A model generated the notes under the pieces. The model was given only the letters and a program-made list of their open reading frames with translations, was not told where the DNA came from and searched no databases. This document shows positions 9,884 through 12,603 of a DNA stretch of 48,038 nucleotides, piece by piece (the first letter of the stretch is position 1; each line of letters opens with the position of its first letter). The DNA is taken from contig JAJYFL010000017.1 of the NCBI GenBank assembly GCA_021790935.1, forward strand, positions 1-48,038, in the 5' to 3' direction. Source of the DNA: a bacterium. GTDB lineage: Bacteria > Vulcanimicrobiota > Vulcanimicrobiia > Vulcanimicrobiales > Vulcanimicrobiaceae. Position numbers and translations under genes: made by a program.

Positions 9884-9913
9884 ATTGTAGTCCCCCCAAG
9901 CGCGCCTTGTCAA
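9884..9913 (-). promoter_or_regulatory. Sigma-70-type promoter of the yceD-rpmF-fab operon
   Basis: Read on the minus strand, a perfect TTGACA (9913-9908) is followed by an 18-nt spacer and TACAAT (9889-9884). Transcription would start near 9877, about 43 nt before the yceD ATG. The short leader contains a GGTCC/GGACC hairpin. No such element lies inside the run down to rimM, so this probably drives much of it. Confidence 0.7.
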
Positions 9914-9943
9914 ACGGCTCTGTCGACGGGATAGAGGGATACG

Positions 9944-10618
9944 ATGAACAGCATACCTCCGGGCGCTCCTGCCGCCCAAACGCTTGCGAGCAGCGGGGTG
10001 GCCTACGCCCGTGAGATTGCCGCTGCCGCCCGCCGGCACGGCCTCGACCCGCGCCTGTTGGCTGCCGTCGCCGCCCAAGAGACGGGCGGCCCCGGGAGCA
10101 ATGCCGGCCGCAATATCGTCGGGGACGGCGGGCACGGCCGCGGCCTCTTCCAGATCGACGACCGCTGGCACGCCTTTGCCCGCTCGCCCGCCGCAATGCA
10201 GCCCGCGCGCAACGCAGAGTACGCCGCCGGCCTGATCTCGGGGCTGCTCCACCGCTACGGCGGGAACCTCCGAGAAGCGCTCTCTGCCTACAACTCCGGC
10301 TGCCCGGAATCCAAAGGAACGGTCACGCGCTGGGCCGATGGGCAAAGCCTAGGTTATGCGGACTCCGTCCTACGGCACTACGAGGACCTCGCAGGGGCGG
10401 CCGAACCCGGTCCAAGCCTCCCGGCCGAACTCGACGCCGAGCGCGCGGCCGACCGCGAACGCGTTAACGCGCTCGCCTCCTTTGCCGCTGGGCAGGCCGA
10501 TCTGCTGCCGGCGGCGGTCGCGACCCGCACCTATTCGTACCGCGAACTCGCCGGCCTGGACGACGACGGCGCAAGCCGGCGCCGCGAGCTTGCCGGCGGC
10601 AACGCTGCGCGTGAATGA
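9944..10618 (+). CDS. Lytic transglycosylase (SLT-like lysozyme fold)
   Basis: The 224-residue protein has the SLT arrangement. Catalytic Glu46 is in AAQETGGPGS, GRGLFQIDDRWH follows around residue 65, and ALSAYNSG around 112. These enzymes cleave the MurNAc-GlcNAc bond. There is no signal peptide, so it is unlike a standard periplasmic Slt. It resembles phage virion or secretion-system transglycosylases that cross the membrane by another route. The last 70 residues are Ala/Glu-rich and helical. It leads a three-gene set with the next two genes (gaps of 27 and 2 nt). Confidence 0.8.
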   Translation: MNSIPPGAPAAQTLASSGVAYAREIAAAARRHGLDPRLLAAVAAQETGGPGSNAGRNIVGDGGHGRGLFQIDDRWHAFARSPAAMQPARNAEYAAGLISGLLHRYGGNLREALSAYNSGCPESKGTVTRWADGQSLGYADSVLRHYEDLAGAAEPGPSLPAELDAERAADRERVNALASFAAGQADLLPAAVATRTYSYRELAGLDDDGASRRRELAGGNAARE

Positions 10619-10645
10619 GCTGCGTACTTTCAGGAGGAGAGAATC

Positions 10646-11023
10646 ATGGGTTTCAACCTTGGCAACGCATTGGCCGGAGCCGTGACGGGCTTCATGGAGA
10701 CGGGTAACCCGTGGGTCGGCGCGGCGATGGGCGCCGCCGGCGCCTTCGGCGGCAGCACGAATCTCGGAAACGTCGCGGGCGGCCTCGGCAACGGCGCCAT
10801 GGGCTTGCTCAACGCGCAGAGCGAGGGCTTCCAGGTGGCCATGTACGGCGAGCAACTGCGCCACCAGGAGCAGATGCAGTTCAACTCACAGGCCTTTAAC
10901 GAAATGATCGACGAGAAGTCCGAAAACATGCGGGAAGCCAATACGCTCCGGGACGTTCAGATGTCCCAGTTCCGCGCGGACAACCAAATCGTCAAGAAGT
11001 TCGTCCAGATGATCGGCGAGTAG
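10646..11023 (+). CDS. Small Gly/Ala-rich protein with helical tail, transglycosylase-linked
   Basis: I do not recognise this 125-residue protein. Residues 1-55 are Gly/Ala/Asn-rich and weakly hydrophobic (GAAMGAAGAFGG, GNVAGGLGNG), suited to entering a membrane. Residues 56-125 form a Gln/Met-rich amphipathic helix ending FVQMIGE. The pattern recalls phage internal virion (ejection) proteins or type III secretion translocators, by architecture only. A strong AGGAGG ribosome binding site precedes the ATG. It lies between the transglycosylase and a coiled-coil gene. Confidence 0.65.
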   Translation: MGFNLGNALAGAVTGFMETGNPWVGAAMGAAGAFGGSTNLGNVAGGLGNGAMGLLNAQSEGFQVAMYGEQLRHQEQMQFNSQAFNEMIDEKSENMREANTLRDVQMSQFRADNQIVKKFVQMIGE

Positions 11024-11025
11024 CG

Positions 11026-11349
11026 GTGCGCGTTCGCCCGTTGGCGGCGCAGGCCGCACCACGCGCCGCTTCAGCCCCCGCGCCGGGCTCCCCGGAGCCC
11101 TCCGGGGCGGCGAACGGCGACGACGCGACGCACGATGACGTCGCGCTCGTGCTGCAAAACGTCCTCGACCGCGAGCAGGCTATGGCGACCGAGCAGCAAC
11201 TGCGTCTTCAGGTCCAGCGTGCTACGTTCGACGAAGCCGCTGCGGAGCGCGCCGAGCTCGAGCGCGAATGTAACCTCCTGCAATCGATGTTCCAGCAGCA
11301 GGCCAAAGACGAAGACGAAGTAGTCAAGAAATGGATCGCCCTGATTTAG
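11026..11349 (+). CDS. Small coiled-coil protein, third gene of the transglycosylase cassette
   Basis: This unrecognised 107-residue protein starts at a GTG only 2 nt after the previous stop, which suggests coupled translation. Residues 1-40 are Ala/Pro-rich and disordered. Residues 45-107 are a charged helix with heptad-like Leu/Ala spacing (REQAMATEQQLRLQ, AELERECNLLQ), probably a coiled coil. Its size and position would suit a chaperone or structural partner of the preceding Gly-rich protein, but no function can be assigned. Confidence 0.6.
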   Translation: MRVRPLAAQAAPRAASAPAPGSPEPSGAANGDDATHDDVALVLQNVLDREQAMATEQQLRLQVQRATFDEAAAERAELERECNLLQSMFQQQAKDEDEVVKKWIALI

Positions 11350-11369
11350 GAGGGGCTGCGTGCGACATG

Positions 11370-11378
11370 TGGTACAAT
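11370..11378 (+). promoter_or_regulatory. Extended -10 promoter for tRNA-Ile
   Basis: A TG (11370-11371), one base, then TACAAT (11373-11378) lies 12 nt before the tRNA-Ile 5' end. No good -35 box is visible, as is common for extended -10 promoters. Confidence 0.5.
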
Positions 11379-11390
11379 CACTCGTCGTGC

Positions 11391-11467
11391 GGGCCATTAG
11401 CTCAGTTGGTTAGAGCGCATGCTTGATAAGCATGAGGTCCCTGGTTCGACCCCAGGATGGCCCACCA
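11391..11467 (+). tRNA. tRNA-Ile(GAT)
   Basis: This is a 77-nt cloverleaf. The acceptor GGGCCAT pairs with ATGGCCC, the anticodon loop is CTTGATAAG with anticodon GAT, and the T-loop is TTCGACC. The CCA end is encoded. It stands alone and not in an rRNA operon, which is unusual for tRNA-Ile(GAT). Confidence 0.97.
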
Positions 11468-11481
11468 TGTGAGACCTTCGA

Positions 11482-11524
11482 GCGGGTAGGCCTGGGAAGT
11501 CCAAACTTCCCGGGCCTACCTCGC
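11482..11524. terminator. Strong hairpin after tRNA-Ile (probable terminator)
   Basis: A stem of about 19 bp with one bulge and one G-U pair and a CCAA loop (11501-11504) lies 15 nt after the tRNA and before the convergent gene's stop. It lacks a clear U-tract on either side. It may end transcription from both directions or trim the tRNA 3' end. Confidence 0.55.
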
Positions 11525-11559
11525 ATCTGCCGGCCCACGAAGGGTACAGACAGCGGCTC

Positions 11560-12072
11560 TTATAGCTTATAGATCGAACGCCGCAGGGCCGGCAGATGTG
11601 GATTCTTCCACACGGTGCCGTTCGCGAACGTGATGCGCAGCGGCACGCATCTCGCGAAGGCCGTCCGCAGCGGAAAGACGTTGGGGCTGAGACCGAACTT
11701 GTGCTTGATCTGCACGCCTGGCGAGAAGGTTCCCACATCGCGCACCTCAGCGACCAGCCGGCCACGGGCCACGAGCCCGAACTCGATCTCCTTCATGGTC
11801 GCGGTCATTTCATTGACGTAGTCTATGCCAAGCGTGGGGTTGCCTCCGAGCGAATCTTGATGGTAACGATAACCGTACACGTCGGACCAAAAGTAAGGCC
11901 CCGGCGGGTAGTAGCCCGGGATATACCCGGGCAGCATAAAATGACCTCGGTCGGCGTCGCATGCGAGCACCTTGACCGGATGGCGGGAGGTCGCCGCGTG
12001 CGCGCTCAGAGGAAAGCCGACGGCCATCACCGACGCCAGCGCAAGACCGAGTTTTCGCAAATTGTTCATCAT
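11560..12072 (-). CDS. Secreted protein of unknown function
   Basis: The 170-residue protein has a signal peptide (residues 1-27, ending SAHAA). The mature part is Tyr/Pro/Gly-rich (YIPGYYPPGPYFW), then a beta-rich region ending in ANGTVWKNPHLP. The small secreted form and repeated aromatic residues suggest an envelope protein. I do not recognise the family. It converges on tRNA-Ile, with the hairpin at 11482-11524 between them. A second strong hairpin (12160-12209) separates it from the upstream cupredoxin gene. Confidence 0.7.
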   Translation of the reverse strand: MMNNLRKLGLALASVMAVGFPLSAHAATSRHPVKVLACDADRGHFMLPGYIPGYYPPGPYFWSDVYGYRYHQDSLGGNPTLGIDYVNEMTATMKEIEFGLVARGRLVAEVRDVGTFSPGVQIKHKFGLSPNVFPLRTAFARCVPLRITFANGTVWKNPHLPALRRSIYKL

Positions 12073-12159
12073 TACTCTCCTCCGCCGTTCCTACCCATTT
12101 TTCGTGCGCCGCAATATCCGAGCGAGCCGTGCCGCCCGCGCGGCGCTCGAGCCCGGCGC

Positions 12160-12209
12160 ACCAACGCAAAGAAGGCCTCGGCGCTTGCCGAAGCCTTCGT
12201 TGCGTTGGT
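12160..12209 (-). terminator. Rho-independent-type hairpin behind the cupredoxin gene
   Basis: A 23-bp inverted repeat (12160-12182 with 12187-12209), with two mismatches and a 4-nt loop, starts about 17 nt beyond the cupredoxin stop on the minus strand. No long U-run follows, but the stem is very stable. Confidence 0.65.
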
Positions 12210-12225
12210 TGAACCTCGACGGCTC

Positions 12226-12603
12226 TTACGCCTCGACTTTTACGACGAACTTCATGTTCGCGTGGTCCGGCCCGCACATGATCGCGCAGTGAATGACGTA
12301 GGTTCCCACTTTTTCCGGCGTGAACGTGACGGTCTTGTCGCTGCCCGGCGTAATCACGGTCATCGGAATGCCGAAGTCGCTCGACTCGATTCCATGGACG
12401 CCTGCGGCTGAAGTGAGATGCAACGCAACCGGCTGGCCGGCGTGCACGATGATGACGCCCGGAGTGAACTTCCCGGTCGATGCCGTGATGTTGATATTTT
12501 GAACGGCAGTAGCGGCCGAACCGTTGGCGGGCATCCCGACGGTGAGGCCTAAGCTGAGTGCGCAAGCGAAGAGTGCTGATGCCGCGCGGGCTTGGAAGTT
12601 CAT
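12226..12603 (-). CDS. Secreted cupredoxin with a CuA-type site
   Basis: The 125-residue protein has a signal peptide (1-31) and one cupredoxin domain like that of cytochrome c oxidase subunit II. Ligands visible are His70 (VHGIES) and the block C106-x3-C110-x3-H114-x2-M117, which is the dinuclear CuA pattern. No transmembrane anchor and no oxidase genes are nearby, so it is a free periplasmic electron carrier or copper protein. AAAGG precedes the ATG at 12603. A perfect inverted repeat lies about 80 nt upstream. Confidence 0.85.
   Translation of the reverse strand: MNFQARAASALFACALSLGLTVGMPANGSAATAVQNINITASTGKFTPGVIIVHAGQPVALHLTSAAGVHGIESSDFGIPMTVITPGSDKTVTFTPEKVGTYVIHCAIMCGPDHANMKFVVKVEA

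Follow-up and report, generated by a model that had tools for sequence, protein, structure and literature searches.

What do a cell wall enzyme without a signal peptide and the two small helical proteins encoded directly behind it do together, and how would they reach the wall? Such a cassette lies in the window (the whole stretch of DNA that was analysed, 48,038 nucleotides of contig JAJYFL010000017.1 from a member of the Vulcanimicrobiaceae). A preliminary description had likened its layout to phage ejection proteins and to type III secretion components, and had considered a domesticated or new wall-crossing system. The genes are as follows.

9944..10618, plus strand: gene 1, an SLT/goose-lysozyme-like transglycosylase of 224 amino acids without a signal peptide (open reading frame and PF01464 match)
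10646..11023, plus strand: gene 2, a Gly/Ala-rich head (about residues 1-55) and a long charged helix, 125 amino acids (open reading frame, phylum-wide search, AlphaFold2)
11026..11349, plus strand: gene 3, a disordered Pro/Ala head and a charged helical tail, 107 amino acids, GTG start

The cassette genes are real and under selection, given the distribution of the family and the low pairwise dN/dS within one genus (0.07-0.15 for gene 1, 0.02-0.07 for gene 2 and 0.12-0.18 for gene 3). That they form a tightly spaced, conserved unit was borne out: the open reading frames are where the preliminary description placed them, with 27 bp between genes 1 and 2 and 2 bp between genes 2 and 3. AGGAGG is present upstream of gene 2.

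Protein 1 is an SLT transglycosylase. It matches the Pfam SLT profile (PF01464) above the curated cut-off (1.1e-8, 35.1 bits against 21.3) and contains E46 within AQET, GLFQI at 67, and AYNSG at 115, which we take to be the catalytic Glu, GLxQ, and AYN motifs of the family. Its N-terminus has no strongly hydrophobic stretch (within residues 1-45, the highest KD mean over 19 residues is 0.6), so no Sec signal is apparent, and the earlier reading of a lysozyme-fold enzyme without a signal peptide holds.

Residues 1-55 of protein 2 are 29% Gly and 18% Ala, and the AlphaFold2 model contains a long helix at residues 40-124 besides two short ones, as expected from the earlier account of a Gly/Ala-rich protein with a helical tail. 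The mean pLDDT is only 60, which makes fold comparison uninformative, and a Foldseek search of the PDB with this model gave no significant match. Constraint falls on the charged tail of the protein rather than on its head. Pfam and NCBIfam searches with proteins 2 and 3 of the window returned no family above cut-off; protein 2 thus did not prove to be a known family with another role, an outcome that the preliminary description had said would count against it. A PHROG of no known function, phrog_7546, matches 11 of the 32 protein-2 rows over about 35 residues of the charged helix (best 3.9e-5). Against PDB sequences, profile A1 gave a best match to an influenza HA2 chain (E 0.028), a weak hit that we judged to be chance, and the best E for profile A3 was only 0.25.

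Over their last ~50 residues, proteins 2 and 3 are homologous, a relationship newly recognised here. The shared domains are:

10853..11020, plus strand: shared 56-residue tail domain of protein 2 (alignment A3)
11179..11346, plus strand: shared 56-residue tail domain of protein 3 (alignment A3)

Protein 2, used as a query on its own genome, recovers protein 3 at E 0.002, and a single profile built on the last 56 residues of both recovers the two. The common motif is roughly F-D/N...E-R/K-S/A-E..RE...L......K.D..I.KK(F/W)I..I. The heads differ, being Gly-rich on protein 2 and Pro/Ala-rich on protein 3. Locus L039 of G108 (10640-12521) carries gene 3 twice, with the second copy about 1.4 kb further downstream, and the gap between genes 2 and 3 is enlarged.

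Searches of 149 genomes of the phylum Eremiobacterota recovered relatives of protein 2 from 96 (E<=0.01), usually with protein 3 adjoining, so the co-occurrence in related genomes raised beforehand is present. At this threshold they are restricted to families f1-f3 of the class Eremiobacteria (96 of the 117 genomes in the class, none of the 32 outside it). The tail profile extends the count to 103 of 149 genomes, including three outside the class at E 0.03-0.045, which we judged to be chance matches; in family f3 it gives one copy per genome in most cases. A further search yielded 31 loci, most of the named ones from Candidatus Eremiobacterota and one in a bin labelled Rhodospirillales. Gene 1 is present at E<=1e-50 in 77 of 149 genomes (our own count of the search listing). 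It lies beside gene 2 in family f1 only, and was not detected in the six f2/f3 loci examined.

On one side of the cassette in the window is a divergent series, yceD-fabH-fabD-fabG-acpP-ffh (all names but yceD are presumed from the sequences), and on the other a tRNA-Ile and a cupredoxin gene. In most f1 loci fetched the cassette adjoins yceD-rpmF-fabH. The preliminary description had taken unrelated neighbours in relatives as a sign against a functional unit; the neighbours are conserved, though they are housekeeping genes. Two candidate promoters, read from their sequence and their recurrence in relatives, lie between yceD and gene 1.

9907..9935, plus strand: putative sigma70-like promoter of the cassette, TTGTCA at 9907-9912 and GATAGA at 9930-9935, 17 bp apart
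9884..9913, minus strand: putative promoter of the divergent yceD-rpmF-fab genes, TTGACA at 9913-9908 and TACAAT at 9889-9884

Together the two sigma70-like promoters span 9884-9935 of the window, and the overlap of their -35 boxes recurs in most relatives compared.

The 3' part of gene 2, around codon 110, looks like an integration hot spot. The gene breaks off at codons 109-111 in three genomes (G037, G054, and G107, the last with an insertion carrying a resolvase gene) and in one viral contig; in another viral contig the break is near codon 120. The loci with breaks at the 3' end of gene 2 are L106, L109, L147, L184, and L185.

If the proteins have no Sec signal, which machine could export them? 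The preliminary description had noted that no secretion genes surround the cassette; this is correct locally, but another contig of the genome (G000:C20, about 85-99 kb; L064 and L065) carries a reduced flagellar-type secretion machine, here called T3SS-B. Its cluster has Pfam matches to FlhA, FlhB, FliR, FliQ, FliP, FliN, FliI, FliH, FliF, and FliE, and to a Flg_bbr_C protein; a match to FlgE/F/G-D1 is sub-threshold, and the C-terminus of FliF carries a FliG_M piece. A transglycosylase of the machine's own adjoins fliI, and the cluster is interleaved with a presumed metF and followed by presumed secDF genes. No hook, filament, or motor genes were recognised in the cluster, in which small open reading frames were covered non-exhaustively. 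FHIPEP (FlhA/SctV) was found in 138 of 149 genomes, with two copies in the genome of the window, the second of them in the T3SS-B cluster. In a tree of 20 rows, several of which deviate in composition, T3SS-B FlhA clades with the f3 FlhA, separate from the remaining FlhAs in the phylum (100/99 support). Some genomes have two or three T3SS-B-type FlhA genes (G035 on C18 and C62; G095 on C53, C188, and C18). T3SS-B is widespread in the class, and its class-level range matches that of the cassette. The machine is perhaps of more interest than the cassette. Among titles and abstract openings on Eremiobacterota/WPS-2 secretion, flagella, and transglycosylases, none described either one. A passage on Vulcanimicrobium alpinus, a cultivated member of the Baltobacteraceae, reports that it lacks flagella and a flagellin gene (PMC9758169).

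T3SS-B has been lost in six genomes (G092, G099, G100, G101, G107, and G110). In G099, G100, G101, and G107, FliP is absent, a DUF3810 gene, an aspartic protease gene, metF, and secD remain together, and no fli, flg, or flh genes were detected among the remaining host genes; this loss is real and falls on long contigs. G092 and G110 retain remnants of T3SS-B with stops or frameshifts. The cassette of G092 consists of fragments with stops and a frameshift, and gene 1 was not found. In G099 gene 1 has a nonsense mutation that replaces the conserved W of IDDRWH with a stop, and gene 2 of G107 is split by about 6.8 kb of inserted DNA that includes a resolvase gene. In G101 an IS1595-type transposase gene is inserted between yceD and gene 1, and protein 2 has a Leu-to-Pro change at a near-invariant position. 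G099 and G101 belong to one genus, yet their lesions differ. The cassette reading frames of G110 are intact despite the loss of T3SS-B, and G100 could not be scored because neither cassette nor yceD matched.

Among genomes that lost T3SS-B, the cassette is therefore broken in 4 of the 5 that could be scored, against 3 of 47 T3SS-B-positive f1 genomes (Fisher p 0.0006, in a post hoc test devised after the first cases that takes no account of phylogeny). The 47 are f1 genomes at least 90% complete with T3SS-B, 52 minus five with the cassette or yceD at a contig edge (G079, G126, and G040) or no yceD match (G057 and G073); the broken ones are G037, G048, and G052. The p value is 0.008 under either alternative, whether five relocated cassettes are scored as broken or coding damage alone is counted. 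Presence of T3SS-B was judged by FlhA and FliP, with the type of FliP judged by bit score; T3SS-B-type FliP is present in G034, G056, G063, G067, G072, G115, G123, and G126. Exceptions run both ways. An intact cassette occurs where T3SS-B FlhA/FliP was not found in G083 (87% complete), G104 (56%), and G069 (61%), and gene 2 is broken despite T3SS-B in the three genomes named and in G090 (84% complete). Pairs involving G099 or G101 did not show raised dN/dS after the loss of T3SS-B, and one regular expression revealed no promoter motif common to the cassette and the flgB operon. No gene 1 was detected in the loci fetched from several T3SS-B-positive genomes.

Breakage where the machine was lost suggests, and does not prove, a link between the cassette and T3SS-B. 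We tentatively propose, as the best explanation though one that falls somewhat short of probable, that the cassette serves T3SS-B as an unlinked accessory module, with a wall enzyme and helical subunits that would be exported through the machine. The three proteins, which include a wall enzyme and show no apparent Sec signal, need an exit route, and T3SS-B offers one. By predicted function it retains an export gate, an ATPase, an MS-ring, a FliN-like protein, and rod-type proteins. The signal-less protein 1 would be exported through T3SS-B or act at the base of the machine, opening the peptidoglycan. We infer from the homologous tails that proteins 2 and 3 may pack together, as exported axial proteins do, and co-assemble as small exported helical subunits at the rod tip, in a periplasmic tube, or in a membrane-inserting tip; the Gly-rich head of protein 2 could enter a membrane. 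The absence of a detected gene 1 from several T3SS-B-positive loci and from f2/f3 loci implies that the enzyme would be dispensable for the role of protein 2. Several points weigh against the link. Besides the exceptions, the dN/dS and promoter results and the undetected gene 1 given above, the cassette lies outside the T3SS-B cluster, the machine already has a transglycosylase, and profile searches and a fold search with the low-confidence model found nothing to connect proteins 2 and 3 with T3SS parts.

In a more specific version, which we consider unlikely as a whole, the machine would be a flagellar derivative that has shed hook, filament, and motor; it would export proteins 2 and 3 as its axial or tip subunits and use protein 1 as its dedicated wall opener, with the genes for these outer parts at a site unlinked to its own. 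This would be a class-wide "half flagellum" turned into a secretion device. If the link is true, Eremiobacteria possess a flagellar export machine that has no flagellum of its own and whose outer parts were overlooked, and it would join the Myxococcales system as a second type of flagellum-to-secretion intermediate. V. alpinus could serve as a test organism if its genome holds both the cassette and T3SS-B.

The cassette may instead be a stand-alone envelope module in which protein 1 and its partners, proteins 2 and 3, remodel peptidoglycan (in division, at the septum, or in elongation) after leaving by another export route, the link to T3SS-B being coincidental. This is possible, if rather doubtful. 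The constant position beside yceD-rpmF-fabH in most f1 loci examined, the overlap of housekeeping-type promoters, the strong constraint on gene 2, and the genomes with a cassette in which T3SS-B was not found all agree with it. It leaves the signal-less proteins with no apparent export route, and does not account for the breakage pattern in genomes that lost T3SS-B or for loci in which genes 2 and 3 are intact and gene 1 is missing. Programmed lysis by a holin-endolysin-like cassette, with protein 1 as endolysin, protein 2 as pore former, and protein 3 as helper, is improbable. A gene for a signal-less muramidase does lie directly 5' of one for a small Gly-rich protein, but protein 2 has no segment of transmembrane strength (best KD19 0.71; 1.44 and 1.0 in two relatives), and the constraint lies on its charged tail, not on the Gly-rich head.

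Descent from phage ejection proteins of the T7 gp14-gp16 kind, or from another phage remnant, we consider very improbable, and the kinship suggested in the preliminary description was not upheld. Protein 1 matches phrog_2013 "lytic tail protein" (1.5e-9) and phrog_342 "internal virion protein with endolysin domain" (1.7e-8), and a Gly-rich head followed by a helix is a layout in keeping with such proteins. However, these matches are confined to the SLT domain, the only strong PHROG match of the cassette (proteins 2 and 3 gave weak matches at best), and tblastn with protein 1 and one protein-2 relative found nothing in 50,697 phage records. No virion genes lie beside the cassette, which is inherited class-wide. 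Only two viral contigs were found to contain a relative of protein 2. One has genes 1 and 2 at its end, where gene 2 gives way to other DNA near codon 111, whereas its counterpart starts inside gene 2; judged by these junctions, both fit prophages integrated in a host gene 2, not a phage origin of the cassette. Three more viral contigs have relatives of protein 1 alone, 39-49% identical over parts. The proposed module of T3SS-B keeps the wall-crossing role that the preliminary description had foreseen, which we consider plausible.

Among known systems, T7 gp14-gp16 and the P22 ejection proteins share the general layout of a muramidase plus small helical proteins, and no sequence link to them was found for proteins 2 and 3. 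Kinship with T3SS components, also suggested beforehand, was not supported: translocator, needle, and inner-rod profiles in Pfam did not match the window proteins, no catalogued translocator profile scored above cut-off, and an NCBIfam match to SseD (0.0054) in 1 of 32 protein-2 rows was not accepted. Pfam Flg_bb_rod and Flg_bbr_C likewise gave no match in proteins 2 and 3, so they do not group with flagellar axial proteins by profile. The closest solved sequences to protein 1 are goose-type lysozymes (3.3e-5, residues 21-80). Known goose-type lysozymes are secreted animal enzymes, whereas protein 1 has no signal peptide. The IagB-type transglycosylases of T3SS and the FlgJ-type muramidases are, like protein 1, small SLT enzymes; the match to the IagB type (NF011856) is 1.3e-5 with 24.8 bits against a cut-off of 208, and that to FlgJ is weak (0.11). 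Unlike these types, protein 1 is encoded apart from the machine, and T3SS-B has an enzyme of its own. The nearest counterpart of T3SS-B is the Myxococcales-type intermediate NF-T3SS, which lacks FlgB, FlgC, and FliE, among others (PMC3459982). Both are flagellum-derived export machines without motility parts; unlike the Myxococcales system, T3SS-B keeps a FliE, and one of its rod proteins matches Flg_bbr_C.
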